The notes under the pieces: generated by a model
Seen by the model: the letters and a program-made list of their open reading frames with translations, nothing else
Told to the model about the DNA's origin: nothing
The model's database searches: none
From: Bacteroidota bacterium
GTDB taxonomy: Bacteria; Bacteroidota; Bacteroidia; 2-12-FULL-35-15
Reading direction: 5' to 3'
Assembly (NCBI GenBank): GCA_025963725.1
Contig: JAOQAE010000002.1
Span: 695,221 to 759,220, forward strand
DNA length: 64,000 nucleotides
Shown: positions 6,911 to 59,196 of the stretch, in pieces
How the letters are laid out: every line of letters starts with the position of its first letter
Numbering within the stretch: the first letter of the stretch is position 1
Made by a program: the position numbers and the translations under genes

Positions 6911-8383
6911 ATGCTGAGATACATTCTTAAACGAATTTTCCTTTTCATTCCAACGCTTATAATCATCACCCTGCTGGGTTTTATTATAAGCATCAATGCA
7001 CCGGGCGACCCTGTTGAACGTATGGTATCCTCTGCCCAGTCGGGCGGCGAGATCGGCACGCAAAGCGTCAGCCAGGTGCAGGACAAGATCTTCTGGCGCA
7101 AAAAGCTCGGCCTCGACCTCCCGGTGTTTTACTTTTCACTCACCTCGCTTTCACGTCCCGATACACTTTACAGGATCTACGACCGCAGCGAACGTGAGGC
7201 CCTCGACAGGCTCATCAGCCGGTACGGCAACTGGGAGCAGATCCAGCAATATGAGCAAGGCCTGGTATCGTTTTACAGCTCGCTCATCGCGTTCACCCCC
7301 GACAGCAGCCAGCTGCAGCAATACAACAAAAACACGATCAGGGAGCACATGAACTGGCTCAAGTCCGAATCCCTTGCTCTCCGCTCCTCTTACGAGGAAA
7401 ATATTATCGCAGCCAAGCTCGGCAAGATCAGCGGCATTCTTTCCCAATATCCTTTCCTGGCTTCGTTCCGGCCAGCTTTCAGCCGGATAAAGAACGATTA
7501 TGAAAGCATTAAGGCAAACGCTTCCGCCTGGAAGAATTACATTCCGCGCCTTGCCTTCTACAAAACACAGAACCAGTATCACCGCTGGCTGTTTGGCGAC
7601 GGCGAGTTCTCACAGGGCCTCGTTCGTCTCGACTTCGGCACTTCCTATACCACAAAGCAGCCTGTCTCCGATGTGATCTTTTCCCGGATCGGCTGGTCGA
7701 TGTTCTTTGCGATGCTTTCCGTACTTCTCGCGTATCTCATCAGCATCCCGCTTGGCGTGAAGGCCGCAGCGCGCAGGGGCTCCCGCTTCGATAAATATTC
7801 CTCGCTCCTTCTTTTTATGCTCTATTCCATGCCTTCCTTCTGGCTGGCGACGCTGCTGCTTATGACATTTGCCAATACCGATGTGCTCCACTGGTTTCCC
7901 GCTTCGGGCGTTAAGCCGCCAATGGGTTACCCCGATGCCGCAGGCTTCTTCGATAAGGTAAAGCTTTCGTTGCCGTATCTCATCCTTCCTGCCATTTGCT
8001 ATACGTACAGCTCATTTGCATTTTTATCGCGCACCATGCGCGTATCTATGATCGATACCATCGGGCAGGATTACATCCGCACGGCGCGCGCAAAAGGGCT
8101 GCCGGATGACAAAGTGATCTGGAAGCATGCCTTCCGCAATTCGCTGCTGCCGATCATTACCGTGTTCGCAAATATTTTTCCGGCTGCCATCGGCGGCTCG
8201 GTGATCATTGAAAGCATCTTCACCATTCCCGGGATGGGCTATGAAACCTTCCTCGGCATCCAGAACAATAATTATCCGATGATCATTGCCGTGTTCACCA
8301 TCACCGGCTTTCTAACGCTGCTGGGCTACCTGGTGTCGGATGTATTGTATGCGCTTGTTGACCCACGGATCTCCTATAAATGA
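6911..8383 (+). CDS. ABC transporter permease, DppB/OppB type
   Basis: 490 residues. TM1 is at about 8-30, then an unusually long extracytoplasmic stretch to about residue 250, then the BPD_transp_1 core with about five more membrane helices. The cytoplasmic coupling (EAA) loop is visible as DYIRTARAKGLPDDKVIWKH. Enteric DppB is about 340 residues; the extra 150 or so fall almost entirely in the TM1-TM2 loop. It pairs with the permease at 8380 (start overlaps this stop by 4 bases, ATGA) and with the binding protein upstream. Confidence 0.93.
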   Translation: MLRYILKRIFLFIPTLIIITLLGFIISINAPGDPVERMVSSAQSGGEIGTQSVSQVQDKIFWRKKLGLDLPVFYFSLTSLSRPDTLYRIYDRSEREALDRLISRYGNWEQIQQYEQGLVSFYSSLIAFTPDSSQLQQYNKNTIREHMNWLKSESLALRSSYEENIIAAKLGKISGILSQYPFLASFRPAFSRIKNDYESIKANASAWKNYIPRLAFYKTQNQYHRWLFGDGEFSQGLVRLDFGTSYTTKQPVSDVIFSRIGWSMFFAMLSVLLAYLISIPLGVKAAARRGSRFDKYSSLLLFMLYSMPSFWLATLLLMTFANTDVLHWFPASGVKPPMGYPDAAGFFDKVKLSLPYLILPAICYTYSSFAFLSRTMRVSMIDTIGQDYIRTARAKGLPDDKVIWKHAFRNSLLPIITVFANIFPAAIGGSVIIESIFTIPGMGYETFLGIQNNNYPMIIAVFTITGFLTLLGYLVSDVLYALVDPRISYK

Positions 8384-51843: not shown

Positions 51844-54800
51844 TTATTGTTGAGCAACCTCAGTATCCCTTGAAAATTCCTGCTCCGTAATAGGCACATC
51901 GTCCTTGAAGTAATACACCGGGCCGAAGCTGGTTTCCTTCTTCACATACATGTGGCCTTCCTGTCCTTTTACCACGATCCTGCGCGTTACTTTTGCGTTG
52001 TTCTCGCGTGCAAGCTCTTCCGTGATGCCTTCCGGGTATTTCTTGGCTAGCTCGCTCTTGAACTCATCTTTATTGTTCACGGCGGCAACGGTTGTGGTTG
52101 CGCCGTTCTTATTTTTCGCCAGCTTGTCGATCTCAGCGATCTTATCCTTCGGATATTTCTCAGTGGCCCTGATCAGCAATGCATCCTGGTAGGTGCTTCT
52201 TGCAAGCTTGTAATCCTTGGTGCCAAACAGCTTATCAGCTTTGGCGATCAGGTCGGTGTACTGCTTGTCTTTTTCCTTTGCGCGCGATTGTGCATCGATC
52301 AATTTATTGATCTCCGAGATCTTGTTCGCCGGGTAAGGCTCATTTGCCTTGATGGCCTGCGCTTCCTTGTATGCAGCGATCGCCTCATTGTATTTCTGGG
52401 CGGCAAGCAGGTCGTCGGCCTTTTTAGCGGCAGCATCGTATTTTTCCTGCACAGCCCTGTTCTTTGCAAGGTCGGAGATGAATGCGTTCACCTTTGCCAG
52501 CTGGTCTTTCGGATACTGCTCCGAAGGCTTTAAGCCGGACGCTTCCGCATAAGAAGTTTTTGCGGAAGGATAATCCTTTGCGGTAAATGCTTCATCAGCC
52601 TTCGCGATCGCGGCTTTGTATTTCTCTTCCGTTTCTTTTGCACCCGCATCTTTCGCGATCAGCGCATCGATCGCGGCAAGCTTATCCTTCGGATATTTTT
52701 CGGCAGGCTTGAAGCCCAGCGCTTCGTTGTAGCCCGCTTTGGCGCCATCGTAATCCTTCGCTGCAAGCGCAGCGTCGGCTTTGGTGATGGCGGCATTGTA
52801 TTTTTCCGCGAGGGCTTTGCCGGCGGCATCCTTGTTTGCCAGCTCGTCCATGATCCGGTCGATCTCGGCGATCTTATCCTTCGGGTACTGCTCTGCCGAC
52901 TTCACTCCCAACGCCTCGTTGTATGCGCCTTTTGCAGCGTCATAGGTCTTCGCGGCAAATGCCTTGTCGCCTTTCGCTATTGCAGCTTTGTATTTTGCCT
53001 CGAGCGCCGCCTTCTCCTTTTCGGAAGATGCATCCGCAATTAATTTTTCGATCTCGGAAAGCTTGTCCTTCGGATACTGTTCCGCAGGTTTCACTCCCAA
53101 TGCTTCGTTGTACGCGCCTTTTGCAGCATCATAGGTCTTCGCGGCAAATGCCTTGTCGCCTTTCACAACGGCTGCGGCATACTTTGCTTCGAGCGCTTTT
53201 TGAGCTGCATCCTTGTCTTTGGCAGCCGCGATCGCAGCAAGCTCCTTCTCCACTTCCGCCAGCTTATCCTTCGGATACTGCTCTGCCGGCTTCAATGCAA
53301 GCGCTGCGGTATATTGTGTTTTTGCGGCAGAAAAATCTTTTGTGCCTAAAGCACCATCGCCTTTCGCAATTGCTTCGGCATATTTTTTCTCCAGCTCCTT
53401 CGCGCCCATTTCTTTTGCAAGGATCGCATTGATCTCGGCGATCTTGTCCTTCGGGTATTTTTCGGAAGGCTTCAAACCGGCAGCTTCGTTATACGATGCT
53501 TTCGCGCCGTCATATTCCTTCTGCCCGAGCGCAGCATCCGCTTTTGCAATAGCGGCAGCATACTTTTCAGCAGTTTCTTTTTCTTTCGCTAAGCGATCCT
53601 GCTCTGCCTTATCCTTCGCGGCAAGGTCGGCCAGCGCTTTGTCGATCTCCGCCAGCTTTGTCTTCGGATATGCCTCCGCAGGCTTAAAGCCCAGCGCTTC
53701 GTTGTAGCCCGATTTTGCTTCCTCGTAGCTTTTTGCCTTTAATGCGGCATCGCCTTTCGCCACAGCGGACTTGTATTTATCATCCAGCTCCTTTGCACCC
53801 ATTTCCTTCGCGATCAGCGCATCGATCTCTGCGATCTTGTCTTTCGGATACTGCTCTGTTTCTTTCAGCGCAAGGGCATCGTTGTATGCGGTTTTGGCAG
53901 CGGGATATGTTTTTGCCTTCAATGCGGCATCGCCTTTGGCAATTGCAGCTTTGTATTTGGCATCCAGCTCTGCAAGCTTTGCCTGGCGGTCTTTTTCAGC
54001 GCCGGCATCGGCCAGCGCCTTGTCAACTTCCGCCAGTTTATCTTTCGGGTATTGCTCGCCGGGCTTCAGGGCAAGCGCATCGGAATAGCCTGTTTTTGCG
54101 GCGGTGTAATCTTTTTTGCCAAGCGCGGCATCGCCTTTTGCAAGGGCAGCGGCATATTTTTCCTCGAGCGCTTTGGCTCCCATTTCTTTGGCAACGATCG
54201 CATCGATCTCCTTGATCCGGTCTTTCGGATATTGCTCAGTGGCTTTCAGGGCAAGCGCTTCGGTGTATGCGGTTTTGGAAGCGGTATAATCCTTAGAGCC
54301 GAATGCGCCGTCAGCTTTGGCAATAGCCGCTTTGTATTTTTCCTCCAGCTCTTTTGCTTTCGCCAGCTTGTCCTTTTCCGCGGCATCCTTTGCAGCGATG
54401 TCCGCAAGGGTCTTGTCGATCTCCGCCAGCTTTGTTTTCGGGTAGGCTTCGGCAGGCTTCACGCCCAATGCCTCATTGTAGCCGGCCTTTGCCTCATTAT
54501 ACGTTTTTGCCGCAAGCGCTTTATCTGCCCTGGCAACAGCGGCATTGTACTTATCGTTCAACTCCTTGGCCGCAGCATCTTTCGCCAGCAGGCCATCGAT
54601 CTCGGCAAGCTTGTCCTTCGGGTACTGCTCCGACGATTTCACAGTCAACGCTTCGTTGTAGCCCGCTTTTGCGGCATCATACGTTTTCGCCTTCATAGCG
54701 GCATCCGCTTTTGCAATTGCAGCTTTGTACTTTGTCTCCTGCTCTGCGGTTTTGGAAGCATCCGCCATCGCTTTGTCGATCTCTGCTAATTTATCCTTCG

Positions 54801-56487
54801 GGTATTGCTCGGCCGATTTCAGCGTATTTGCTTCGGTGTAGCCGGCCTTGGCAACGGCATAATCCTTCTTCGCCAGCGCAGCATCTCCTTTGGCAATGGC
54901 TGCCTGGTATTTTGCATCCAGCTCTTTTTCCTTTGCCAGCCTGTCTTTTTCAGCTTTGTCCTTCGCGGCAAGCTCTCCAAGGATCTTCTCGATCTCAGCG
55001 ATCTTATCCTTCGGGTACTGCTCCGCCGATTTTAATCCCGATGCTTCGCTGTAACCGGCTTTGGCTGCAGGATAATCTTTTGCAGCTAATGCCTTGTCGC
55101 CTTTTGCAATAGCGGCGGTATATTTTTCGTTCAGCTCTTTTTCCGCTTTTTCCTTTGCGGCCATGTCGCCCATCAGCTTATCGATCTCCGCAAGCTTGGT
55201 TTTCGGATAGGCTTCCGCCGGCTTTAACCCGGAAGCTTCTGTATAGCCTGCCTTTGCTGTGGGATAATCTTTTGCTGCGAGCGCCTTATCGCCTTTTGCG
55301 ATGGCTGCATCGTATTTCGCGGCAAGCTCCTTTTCTGATTTTTCTTTATTCGCAAGCTCCGCGAGGGCTTTGTCGATCTCCGCGATCTTGTCCTTCGGAT
55401 ATTTTTCAGCGGCCTTTAAGCCAAGCGCTTCGGTATACCCTGCTTTTGCGGCATCGTAGGCCTTTGCCGCAAGCGCCTTGTCCGCTTTCGCGATGGCTGC
55501 TTCATACTTTGCATTCAGCTCTTTTTCACCGGCAAGCTTTGCCAGCGCGGCATCTATCTCTCCAAGCCTTGTCTTCGGGTAGGCTTCTGCCGGCTTCAGC
55601 TTCAAGGCATCGTTATAGCTTGTTTTTGCATTCGTATAATCTTTGGAAGTGAATGCTGCATCCGCTTTTGCGATAGCGGCTTTGTAATCATTCTCCAGCT
55701 GAGCATTCTTCTGCGCATCCGCCAGCAGCTTCTCGATCTCCACGATCTTTCCTTTCGGATAAGCTTCTCCAACCTTGATGCTCAGCGCCTCTTCGTATGC
55801 GGCCCTCGCCGTTGTGTAATCTTTTTTTCCGAATGCCGCATCGCCTTTTGCAATGGCTGCATCATATTTGCCCGCTGCCGCGCTTTCCAGCTCCTGCTTT
55901 TGCTTGACCTCTTCCTCCGCCTTCTGGTTCGCCTCTTTCTCAATCTGGTTCAGCTTTGCAAGCGCATCCAGCATCGACTGTGAGTAGGCTTTGTCGAAAT
56001 CGATCTCCTTGATCTTGTCATCGTAATAGAATTTCGCCATTGGCTGGCTGAGGATGCTGTTGATCTGCGATACAACGCCGGGATCTTTCGGCATTTCAAA
56101 AATGCTCACCTCTATGTCCTGCCCGCCAAACTCTTCCTTGGCGCGCTCATCAGGGATGCCTTTTGTATTGAAATAGAACTTTTTAGTGATGTGTCCCGGC
56201 TTGGAAATGGTGAGCGTGTACTCGGCATTGAGGTCCATCTTAACATTGAAGCGGCCGTTGGAAGTGGTGACCACCTGCTGCACCTGCGTGGAGCCGCGGT
56301 AGAGGCTTACAACAGCGCCTTCCACTTTTTTCTTGTTTTTTTTCACCGTCCCGTTCACATCGTAGATGTTCTGCGCGATTGCAGTGCCCGCAGACAGGGC
56401 AATGAACAGCATTGCCATCAGCAAGCCCGACAGAAATTTCGCAGGCCTGTTACAGCCCGGATCCTTGCTCCAAAAAATCATACGCAT
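51844..56487 (-). CDS. Giant exported protein with 20 TPR-like repeats
   Basis: 1547 residues. Order: signal peptide (FLSGLLMAMLFIALSAGTAIAQ region), carboxypeptidase-regulatory-like beta domain (about 40-135; VNGTVKKNKKKVEGAVVSLY), a helical linker, then 20 helical repeats of about 60-70 residues (about 205-1470), each built as YKAAIAKGDAAL...DY..AK.GYNEAL.LKP.E.YPKDKIAEID. Linkers between repeats are Ala/Lys/Glu-rich and vary in length. The C-terminus is a conserved non-repeat tail (EEGHMYVKKE-like, GHMYVKKETSFGPVYYF). A two-helix unit with the YPK turn is TPR-like. Scaffold or periplasm-spanning rod is the inference. First gene of the minus-strand operon. Confidence 0.85.
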   Translation of the reverse strand: MRMIFWSKDPGCNRPAKFLSGLLMAMLFIALSAGTAIAQNIYDVNGTVKKNKKKVEGAVVSLYRGSTQVQQVVTTSNGRFNVKMDLNAEYTLTISKPGHITKKFYFNTKGIPDERAKEEFGGQDIEVSIFEMPKDPGVVSQINSILSQPMAKFYYDDKIKEIDFDKAYSQSMLDALAKLNQIEKEANQKAEEEVKQKQELESAAAGKYDAAIAKGDAAFGKKDYTTARAAYEEALSIKVGEAYPKGKIVEIEKLLADAQKNAQLENDYKAAIAKADAAFTSKDYTNAKTSYNDALKLKPAEAYPKTRLGEIDAALAKLAGEKELNAKYEAAIAKADKALAAKAYDAAKAGYTEALGLKAAEKYPKDKIAEIDKALAELANKEKSEKELAAKYDAAIAKGDKALAAKDYPTAKAGYTEASGLKPAEAYPKTKLAEIDKLMGDMAAKEKAEKELNEKYTAAIAKGDKALAAKDYPAAKAGYSEASGLKSAEQYPKDKIAEIEKILGELAAKDKAEKDRLAKEKELDAKYQAAIAKGDAALAKKDYAVAKAGYTEANTLKSAEQYPKDKLAEIDKAMADASKTAEQETKYKAAIAKADAAMKAKTYDAAKAGYNEALTVKSSEQYPKDKLAEIDGLLAKDAAAKELNDKYNAAVARADKALAAKTYNEAKAGYNEALGVKPAEAYPKTKLAEIDKTLADIAAKDAAEKDKLAKAKELEEKYKAAIAKADGAFGSKDYTASKTAYTEALALKATEQYPKDRIKEIDAIVAKEMGAKALEEKYAAALAKGDAALGKKDYTAAKTGYSDALALKPGEQYPKDKLAEVDKALADAGAEKDRQAKLAELDAKYKAAIAKGDAALKAKTYPAAKTAYNDALALKETEQYPKDKIAEIDALIAKEMGAKELDDKYKSAVAKGDAALKAKSYEEAKSGYNEALGFKPAEAYPKTKLAEIDKALADLAAKDKAEQDRLAKEKETAEKYAAAIAKADAALGQKEYDGAKASYNEAAGLKPSEKYPKDKIAEINAILAKEMGAKELEKKYAEAIAKGDGALGTKDFSAAKTQYTAALALKPAEQYPKDKLAEVEKELAAIAAAKDKDAAQKALEAKYAAAVVKGDKAFAAKTYDAAKGAYNEALGVKPAEQYPKDKLSEIEKLIADASSEKEKAALEAKYKAAIAKGDKAFAAKTYDAAKGAYNEALGVKSAEQYPKDKIAEIDRIMDELANKDAAGKALAEKYNAAITKADAALAAKDYDGAKAGYNEALGFKPAEKYPKDKLAAIDALIAKDAGAKETEEKYKAAIAKADEAFTAKDYPSAKTSYAEASGLKPSEQYPKDQLAKVNAFISDLAKNRAVQEKYDAAAKKADDLLAAQKYNEAIAAYKEAQAIKANEPYPANKISEINKLIDAQSRAKEKDKQYTDLIAKADKLFGTKDYKLARSTYQDALLIRATEKYPKDKIAEIDKLAKNKNGATTTVAAVNNKDEFKSELAKKYPEGITEELARENNAKVTRRIVVKGQEGHMYVKKETSFGPVYYFKDDVPITEQEFSRDTEVAQQ

Positions 56488-57820: not shown

Positions 57821-57851
57821 ACACACCCCTTACCCCTCTCAAGAGGGCAAT
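57821..57851 (+). repeat. CCCCTCTCAAGAGGG element
   Basis: ACACACCCCTTACCCCTCTC and AAGAGGGCAAT; inverted relative of 59164-59196. Confidence 0.55.
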
Positions 57852-57889
57852 CACTACTAATCCTGACCCAAATATAAGGTTAAAATCAG

Positions 57890-57897
57890 TACATTTG
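57890..57897 (+). promoter_or_regulatory. -7 element (TACATTTG) of the small-peptide transcript
   Basis: TACATTTG places the transcript start at about 57901, right at the 5' hairpin. A second match, TAACTTTG at 57952-57959, lies four bases before the peptide ATG. Confidence 0.55.
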
Positions 57898-57901
57898 TAA
57901 A

Positions 57902-57936
57902 ATGGTTAGGGAGCTCTGAGTGCTGACCCTAACCAT
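57902..57936 (+). promoter_or_regulatory. 5' leader hairpin
   Basis: ATGGTTAGGG pairs perfectly with CCCTAACCAT across a 15-base loop. It would sit at the very 5' end of the message and could protect it or control translation. Confidence 0.6.
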
Positions 57937-57963
57937 CTAAGTTTAACCTAATAACTTTGAGAA

Positions 57964-58044
57964 ATGACTGTACTGTCAATAATCATGTCATTAGTTTGTC
58001 TTGTTGAGGCTTTGACTAAACTGGTGAACGCTATCAAGAAGTAA
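57964..58044 (+). CDS. 26-residue hydrophobic peptide
   Basis: ATG 57964 to TAA 58042-58044 encodes 26 residues: a hydrophobic core (SIIMSLVCLVEALTKLVN) with a basic end (AIKK). Size, single helix and basic tail resemble type I toxins and other small membrane peptides. The frame is bracketed by a promoter and 5' hairpin upstream and a terminator 20 bp downstream, so it is a self-contained unit of about 195 nt. No antisense RNA promoter is obvious, and the transcript could instead be non-coding. Confidence 0.5.
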   Translation: MTVLSIIMSLVCLVEALTKLVNAIKK

Positions 58045-58063
58045 ATCTTCAACAAGAACCAAG

Positions 58064-58095
58064 ACCCCTACTGACAACAGTGAGGGGTTTTGTAT
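58064..58095 (+). terminator. Rho-independent terminator of the peptide transcript
   Basis: ACCCCT-ACTG / CAGT-G-AGGGGT (one bulge), ACAA loop, followed by TTTTGTATTTT. Confidence 0.8.
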
Positions 58096-58164
58096 TTTAA
58101 TCTCTTTATTCCTCATTGGCAAGCAACACAATTAAACTGGTTTTTAAATCAGTTTTAAAAGCAT

Positions 58165-58172
58165 TATATTTG
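58165..58172 (+). promoter_or_regulatory. -7 element (TATATTTG) of the structured RNA
   Basis: TATATTTG about 8 bp before the 5' arm of the closing stem of the RNA at 58178-58353. Confidence 0.6.
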
Positions 58173-58177
58173 CAATG

Positions 58178-58353
58178 ACATTATAGCGTTAGCTATTCTC
58201 TGTGTGGTCAGAAACTTGGAACTTTCATAAACACACGTCAGAGATAGATTATAGACTAATGCTCACGATTAGCGTGGGTATGTAGGCTTTTCTATTCTGA
58301 CGTGGGTATCCAAGTACCTTGACCAATGGAACTGCTGAAACCCACGCTATTAA
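58178..58353 (+). ncRNA. Rod-shaped structured RNA, 6S-like candidate
   Basis: Non-coding stretch of about 176 nt with nested long-range pairing. The closing stem TTATAGCGT (58181-58189) pairs with ACGCTATTAA (58344-58353). Then comes a large internal bubble, TGGTCA (58205-58210) with TGACCA (58320-58325), CTTGGA (58215-58220) with TCCAAG (58309-58314), and CACGTCAGA-G-ATAGA (58234-58248) with TCTAT-TCTGACGTG (58291-58304). A small apical hairpin CTAAT/ATTAG completes it. Length, rod shape, central bubble and own promoter fit a 6S RNA. A competing 9-bp pairing, AGCGTGGGT (58271-58279) with ACCCACGCT (58340-58348), would open the closing stem. The 6S label is inference; the pairing is seen. 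Confidence 0.6.
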
Positions 58354-58398
58354 TTTAATATACATCTCTGTGGGTTTGGAGATATAAACTCTAAGCCC

Positions 58399-58779
58399 AT
58401 GAGATATATTGTATTATTCTTGCTTCTTCCCCTATTTTCCAAAGCACAATTAGGTAATAGCTATAACTATGTCTTAAAAGACTTAGAATCAACTAATAGC
58501 CATCATGAAACAATTAAAAATGATAGCAACTATTGTATTATGTCTATACAGCCTTTAAACAGTAGTTTAGGAGCTGTATATTACTACTTTGATTATAGTG
58601 ACAACATTTGTTATCTCGTTGTATTTGCCTATCCTATATCATCTATAAATACCCTTATTCAGCTAATGAATGAGAAATATGTAAAAGAAGGTAATTTGCT
58701 TTGGAAGGACTATTCTCAGGATGTTTACTATGAGATTGATAAAGATGATAAATTAGTATTCTTAAGAAAGTATCAATAA
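58399..58779 (+). CDS. Small secreted protein of unknown function
   Basis: 126 residues. Signal peptide RYIVLFLLLPLFSKAQ. The mature part is Tyr/Asn/Ser-rich with a central YYYFDYSDNICYLVVFAYP and ends KDDKLVFLRKYQ. AT-rich codon use unlike the core genes. Two or three cysteines (about 46 and 71) could pair. No family recognised. It starts 45 bases after the structured RNA and has no clear own promoter. Confidence 0.7.
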   Translation: MRYIVLFLLLPLFSKAQLGNSYNYVLKDLESTNSHHETIKNDSNYCIMSIQPLNSSLGAVYYYFDYSDNICYLVVFAYPISSINTLIQLMNEKYVKEGNLLWKDYSQDVYYEIDKDDKLVFLRKYQ

Positions 58780-58797
58780 AACTCTATCCAATTTCAC

Positions 58798-58805
58798 TAC
58801 CTTTG
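58798..58805 (+). promoter_or_regulatory. -7 element (TACCTTTG) of the tRNA-like gene
   Basis: TACCTTTG 13 bp before the tRNA-like sequence; implies it is transcribed. Confidence 0.5.
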
Positions 58806-58817
58806 TATTATTAAAAT

Positions 58818-58891
58818 CTTGGGGTAGCTTAATTGGATAGAGCGGCCTTTTTGCGAAAGGTCAGGTGTGGGTTCAAATCCCACTCTCATTT
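58818..58891 (+). tRNA. tRNA-like cloverleaf, anticodon position TGC (Ala), degenerate acceptor stem
   Basis: 74 nt with standard spacing: TA at 8-9, D-stem GCTT/GAGC with GG in the loop, anticodon stem GCCTT/AAGGT and loop TTTGCGA (TGC at 58852-58854), a 5-base variable loop and a perfect T-arm GTGGG-TTCAAAT-CCCAC. The acceptor strands CTTGGGG and TCTCATT pair in only five of seven positions with two wobbles, and the top two pairs are mismatched. There is no G3-U70 pair, the alanine identity element. It is therefore a pseudo-tRNA or an altered tRNA. The IS remnant begins three bases after it. Confidence 0.55.
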
Positions 58892-58893
58892 TT

Positions 58894-59112
58894 TTAAAAT
58901 AATGTCAAGGATTTGTCCTTAATCAAATCTTTGTACTTTAGCCTACATTCACACTGCTTCAGCAGCTTATCAAATCTCTCTTGATTTGAGAGATTGCGTG
59001 TATTATATCTAAATTGAACTTCTGTGCAATATGCTTGAAGGTGTTTAGGGCTTAATTGGTGATAAGTGCCCTCAAGAGGGGATTTGATCCTGCAATCATT
59101 TAAAAAGATCAT
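58894..59112 (-). pseudogene. IS1595-family (ISXO2-like) transposase, C-terminal remnant
   Basis: About 72 residues, only the end of the DDE transposase. GTYHQLSPKHLQAYCTEVQF and RYNTRNLSNQERFDKLL match the conserved tail of ISXO2-like transposases (usual form GTYHxVSPKHLxxYxxEFxFRYN). The N-terminal zinc ribbon and catalytic residues are absent, and upstream sequence is unrelated. It is a decayed insertion-sequence fragment. Confidence 0.82.
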
Positions 59113-59163: not shown

Positions 59164-59196
59164 CCATTCCCCTCTTGAGAGGGGCCAGGGGTGTGT
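59164..59196 (+). repeat. CCCCTCTTGAGAGGGG element
   Basis: CATTCCCCTCTTGAGAGGGG then CCAGGGGTGTG. Related copies are at 36051 and 57821. Confidence 0.65.

Follow-up and report, generated by a model that had tools for sequence, protein, structure and literature searches.

The RNA at positions 58178-58353 of the window (the whole 64,000-nt stretch of DNA analyzed here) probably belongs to a family of cis-acting leader RNAs, spread across the Bacteroidota, whose members switch the downstream gene. Its structure is conserved and includes three overlapping helices supported by covariation, it occupies a leader position, and it is carried by a transposon. From the overlapping chain of helices, A:B:C:D(:E), we infer an attenuator-like logic in which the helices would alternate in the cell, the switch would act in the direction proposed below, and a ligand or a protein would be the partner.

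The 176 nt of the leader core (plus strand) fold into a nested rod at -62.4 kcal/mol, compared with -38.3 ± 4.0 kcal/mol for dinucleotide shuffles (z = -5.99; 0 of 200 shuffles were as stable), and score 106 bits against the covariance model R2 described below. The structured rod with nested helices described in the first-pass annotation is thus real, and the promoter that it had placed directly upstream is present: TATATTTG, a Bacteroidota-type TAnnTTTG element, lies at 58165-58172 (plus strand) and is also kept in a second copy of the RNA. The outer rod helix joins 58205-58211 to TTGACCA at 58319-58325; in the family alignment 95.1% of its cells are paired and double changes occur at all pairs. 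The core helix, ACTTGGA (58214-58220) with TCCAAGT (58309-58315), is supported by covariation in the same alignment, with 99.8% of cells paired and individual pairs showing double changes in as many as 57 sequences. The rod contains two conserved internal loops, which are a candidate sensor. The conserved GUACC (58314-58318), which faces the left-strand GAAA(A)C across an internal loop, is a candidate recognition core.

A BLAST search of the genome and 58 relatives turned up a single further copy, at G000:C7:1106986-1107213 (minus strand) of this genome, which is 83% identical to the window copy over 226 query bases. The two are alike over the entire stretch between the promoter element and the start codon of the following ORF, both included, and the second keeps the rod and helices by paired, compensatory changes. 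Compensatory changes in relatives, which the first-pass annotation had proposed to look for, are therefore present here as well as across the family alignment. The ORFs behind the two copies, of 126 and 137 aa, both begin with signal peptides and have little in common beyond their first residues, MRYIV.

A model built from the two local copies (R1) gave matches that were weak yet plausible, located near related transposases, one of them in a genus-mate. The exact pattern from these copies had no match in the viral or genome collections, and phage and plasmid records, searched by BLAST with the element or with individual leader copies, contained no match to the RNA; only short pieces were hit, one of them under an IS1595 transposase. 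The search motif GCGTGGG-(31-38)-GTACC-(21-25)-CCACGC drew members from Odoribacter, Chryseobacterium, Epilithonimonas, Dysgonomonas, Butyricimonas, Paludibacter, Belliella and viral contigs. This pattern, looser than the exact one, returned true members amid many coding coincidences in GC-rich genomes, and these were sorted using R1 and R2, the latter a covariance model built from a 24-sequence alignment. Based on R2, the family is present in 109 of 395 Bacteroidia genomes (~28%), representing 66 of 196 genera, and in 11 sampled genomes from other classes of the phylum. R2 matched none of 56 non-Bacteroidota loci containing the seed motif. In Prevotella jejuni it caught a further true copy, which lies on the other strand from the motif hit that had first been used. 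Twelve genomes, chosen as positive and searched more deeply, contain 2-14 copies each. The distribution is patchy, and some loci from the viral collection carry the leader.

None of the family members tested matched Rfam 15, either at the gathering score or at permissive E-values; within the window, Rfam matched two tRNAs and no other family. No description of the family was found in a search of openly accessible journal papers. The family looks undescribed in Rfam 15 and in the literature searched; an earlier description may exist elsewhere, such as in subscription journals or preprints. The 14 copies in one 1.9 Mb genome (G323; loci L352-L365) precede unrelated ORFs, and this genome is suited as a model for the study of a regulon.

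Five strands, all read on the plus strand, make up the chain. Strand A (GCTCACG, 58261-58267) is the 5' arm of the apical hairpin and pairs with strand B (TAGCGTGGGT, 58270-58279), which can pair with A or with strand C (AAACCCACGCTA, 58338-58349). Within C, CCCACGC pairs with B and AAACCC pairs with strand D (GGGTTT, 58372-58377). D is either the pseudoknot partner of C or pairs with strand E (CTCTAAGCCCA, 58389-58399), which extends to the A of the start codon. B:C is the competing pairing of the first-pass annotation; it is exact at 10 of 10 bp (58270-58279 with 58340-58349), one pair longer than had been claimed, and it is conserved across the family.

The structure statistics are based on 96 aligned members, most of them recovered from whole genomes with the model; in some of the earliest members, parts of B and C had been set by the seed pattern. 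Across the rod helices, 95.8% of cells are paired and 474 are double-change cells, compared with 141 after shuffling. The covariation score of the rod is 0.653 and falls to 0.07-0.10 when the strands are slid, at which point the signal vanishes. In the apical hairpin A:B, 97.8% of cells are paired and 15 double changes occur, and in B:C 98.4% are paired and 13 occur; for each, 0 of 500 shuffles reach the observed value, a count that carries less weight than the slid controls and the independent lineages, as shuffles remove sequence relatedness only partly. At 90.0% of cells paired, the rod's closing stem (5' AGCGU with 3' ACGCU) has weaker support than B:C. Matched changes in B and C are seen in individual members, such as GGGGUGG/CCACCCC (L285), GCAUGGG/CCCAUGC (L297), GGUGCGGG/CCCGCACC (L336) and GGCACGGG/CUCGUGCC (L341), and strand B thus stays complementary to both A and C.

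The chain extends beyond the rod. C (NNNNCCC) is complementary to D (GGGNNN), which lies a median of 22 nt before the start codon (interquartile range 20-24.5), and the matched-pair score of C:D is 14.9, a value reached in none of 200 permutations (12.1 ± 0.3). In G323, many of the 14 copies show the same C:D complementarity, AAGTCCC/GGGACTT. D:E has a mean score of 9.2 vs 8.0 ± 0.3 permuted (0 of 500) and is confined to a subset of loci, with a score of 12 reached in only 9 of 49 (18%, compared with 8% permuted). It comprises 10 bp in the window copy and in its sister, the second copy of this genome. Together, these comparisons point to conservation in the family of competing helices that link the core to a terminator or to the start codon.

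When B:C is forced, the nested fold of the window leader lies ~7 kcal/mol above the best fold, in a calculation that ignores pseudoknots. A ligand, a protein or co-transcriptional folding could surmount this predicted cost. B:C and the rod could also coexist as a pseudoknot, in which case mutual exclusion is strict only at the overlapping strands: A and C exclude each other on B, and B and D exclude each other on 2-3 nt of C.

The position of the RNA is that of a leader. In 68 of 90 unique loci, a same-strand ATG opening at least 45 codons lies 20-75 nt downstream, whereas such a start is found on the opposite side in 6 of 90 and at 15% of random positions; about a quarter of the copies are without an obvious nearby start codon. 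A same-strand ORF start at a short, constrained distance and a covarying structured core are both expected of a cis-regulatory leader of the riboswitch or attenuator type, and both are seen in the family. The TAnnTTTG promoter element is found upstream of most copies. Runs of at least five T follow strand C in 69 of 90 loci, compared with 10% expected, and are absent in both copies of this genome, the window copy and its sister. Thus, termination is not general.

Having a promoter of its own and, in most copies, a U-run after the 3' strand, the RNA could instead be a trans-acting sRNA of ~165 nt, terminating at the U-run, with the ORF reached by read-through or transcribed separately. We consider this distinctly unlikely, as the RNA is linked by the covariation of C:D and D:E to the start region of the neighboring ORF, the spacing to the start codon is fixed, and the window copy is without a U-run.

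The first-pass annotation had compared the rod to 6S RNA. The RNAs of RF00013 (6S) and RF01685 (6S-Flavo) are rods of similar length, and a ~176-nt rod behind a promoter, in a genome in which a search for another 6S gene recognized none, would suit a 6S RNA, or another RNA that acts as a 6S-like decoy for RNA polymerase. However, the search of Rfam 6S models that the annotation had suggested, 6S-Flavo included, gave no match to the RNA. Genome searches for 6S and 6S-Flavo were also negative; for RF01685 this is weak evidence, given that the model matched no control genome. Unlike 6S RNA and 6S-Flavo, the family is patchy and multi-copy, and its members are placed as cis-leaders whose pseudoknot reaches the start region. 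A single housekeeping gene in most genomes, as which 6S was considered, is contradicted by the 109 of 395 genomes and by the 2-14 copies in 12 positives. The 6S identity is thus not upheld, and we regard it as highly improbable.

The cis-acting leader in the window lies inside a 1225-bp element (57846-59070) that is flanked by the 8-bp target duplication CTCAAGAG at 57838-57845 and 59071-59078 and has the ends GGCAATCACTACTAATCC / GGCACTTATCACCAATTA. Its cargo comprises the leader RNA, a small secreted-protein gene and a tRNA-like gene. The protein gene (58399-58779, plus strand) encodes 126 aa beginning with a signal peptide (MRYIVLFLLLPLFSKAQ...), belongs to no Pfam family, and is presumed to be the gene regulated by the leader; no viral relatives of the small protein were found. 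The tRNA-like gene (58818-58891, plus strand) was called as tRNA-Ala TGC. The transposase is cut down to its C-terminal DDE part (58894-59112, minus strand; PF12762, E = 3.9e-07), in a reading frame that opens just outside the element, and shares 53% identity with the sister element's intact transposase (DDE_Tnp_IS1595, E = 2.5e-37). The sister element (2412 bp; L005:7629-10040) has the target duplication CCTTTTAG and the ends GGCACCTAYATACAA. Both elements have 8-bp target duplications and GGC-type ends, and a third, cargo-free element (L013) has GGCA ends. By transposase, duplications and related ends, these are IS1595-family transposons. Given the duplications and ends at both copies, the accessory patch is a transposon and the leader RNA is its cargo. 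The second reading offered by the first-pass annotation, a regulator on a mobile region beside a small ORF and a tRNA-like gene, therefore holds. IS1595-family transposons with passenger genes likewise combine DDE_Tnp_IS1595, 8-bp duplications and GGC ends; the difference lies in the passengers, here a regulatory RNA, a secreted-protein gene and tRNA-like genes.

As both copies in this genome lie inside such elements, the hairpins might act as DNA, in a recombination site or transposon end. The chance of this is very remote. An IS1595 transposase is near only 7 of 93 loci, some of which were found through that gene, and a general association of the family with IS1595 was rejected on the same count. 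Many G-U pairs on one strand, a promoter upstream and an ORF downstream also argue against a DNA-level element.

We propose that in such a leader the rod, with its candidate sensor loops, would control strand C at its 3' end. In the state with B:C (58270-58279 with 58340-58349), the apical A:B hairpin would be opened and D would be free. In most members, where a U-run follows C, B:C may then act as, or help, a terminator; in the window copy, which is without the U-run, the free D would pair with E and the start codon would be folded away. In the other state, A:B would form, C:D would form the pseudoknot, E would be freed and the gene would be expressed. Carried on an IS1595-family transposon, the leader would bring its own regulation to the small secreted protein.

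The trp attenuator follows the logic 1:2, 2:3, 3:4. Attenuators and riboswitch expression platforms, like the family described here, run an overlapping-helix chain from a structured leader to a terminator or start codon. Unlike them, the present chain reaches a site ~22 nt upstream of the start codon through a long-range pseudoknot, and the genes behind it are without a common function. The downstream ORFs are mutually unrelated, with no family found in more than three of 72 proteins. By a simple score, 49 of 94 have a hydrophobic N-terminus resembling a signal peptide or that of a lipoprotein; others are DNA methyltransferases, type IIG/III restriction-modification enzymes and response-regulator-like proteins. 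Even within the single genome G323, the leaders precede unrelated genes, among them WD40 and BspA-repeat proteins and membrane proteins. Since the controlled genes have no function in common, they suggest no ligand.

RfaH/JUMPstart (RF01707) leaders and put antitermination RNAs place one leader type before varied accessory or horizontally acquired operons. The present family also precedes varied accessory genes, and differs from them in that Rfam gave no JUMPstart match and in that its overlapping helices reach the start codon. It could nevertheless be a leader that enables RNA polymerase or ribosomes to work on genes acquired horizontally, either by binding them directly or via a protein, and without a ligand-driven switch. 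The presence of one leader family before unrelated genes within one genome, and the wide range of genes behind it, many encoding secreted or surface proteins and some encoding restriction-modification enzymes, would fit such an aid. We consider it rather unlikely, as the conserved overlapping A:B, B:C, C:D and D:E exceed what a static binding site needs. Like Flavo-1 and other Bacteroidetes motifs (Weinberg et al. 2010, PMC2864571), the family is an orphan structured RNA of this phylum; none of the Rfam models of those motifs (e.g., RF01705, RF01692-RF01694) matches it.

A switching leader of this kind may also have a wider role, which we put forward tentatively: a phylum-wide, horizontally spread RNA whose five-strand refolding chain (A:B:C:D:E) plugs unrelated accessory genes into one common signal. 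These genes would include secreted proteins, restriction-modification enzymes, and phage and transposon cargo, and newly acquired genes would come with a ready-made switch. Presence in ~28% of the sampled Bacteroidia genomes, with up to 14 copies in 1.9 Mb, would imply a shared regulatory input for many unrelated genes. Because cultured strains carry the family (Chryseobacterium piscicola DSM 21068, Odoribacter lunatus DSM 112344, Prevotella jejuni DSM 26989 and Belliella kenyensis DSM 46651), the switch and its signal are open to direct testing.

Several further observations were made at these loci. Five leaders (L172, L286, L299, L307 and L313) precede probable DNA methyltransferase or restriction genes and show a different, short form, in which a U-run and an A-run surround a GTGG..CAC hairpin directly before the ATG. 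Both elements of this genome contain tRNA-like genes, one in the window and two in the sister element (L003 956-1073 and 1905-1977), and one of the latter can be read only by allowing for a 23-base intron-like insert. These are possibly transposon-borne tRNA relics. A link of the RNA family to accessory tRNAs was rejected, as a tRNA is near only 4 of 127 family loci; the tRNA-like genes thus belong to the element. Between the leader RNA and a tRNA-like gene, the sister element also has a 40-aa lysine-rich ORF (MEKKKKVVKKKKKKAKEKPLKVDMPFEQLVEKMFKTRPKK; L003 1781-1903). Both elements lie in or beside palindromic CCCTC..GAGGGG intergenic repeats that are REP-like (57821-57851 and 59166-59196 in the window; 7340-7640 and 10040-10130 in L005), which suggests a target preference. 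Elsewhere in the window, 51844-56487 (minus strand) encodes a 1547-aa protein of many near-identical repeats of ~60-70 residues (YxAAIAKGDxAxxxKxYxxAKxxYxEA).
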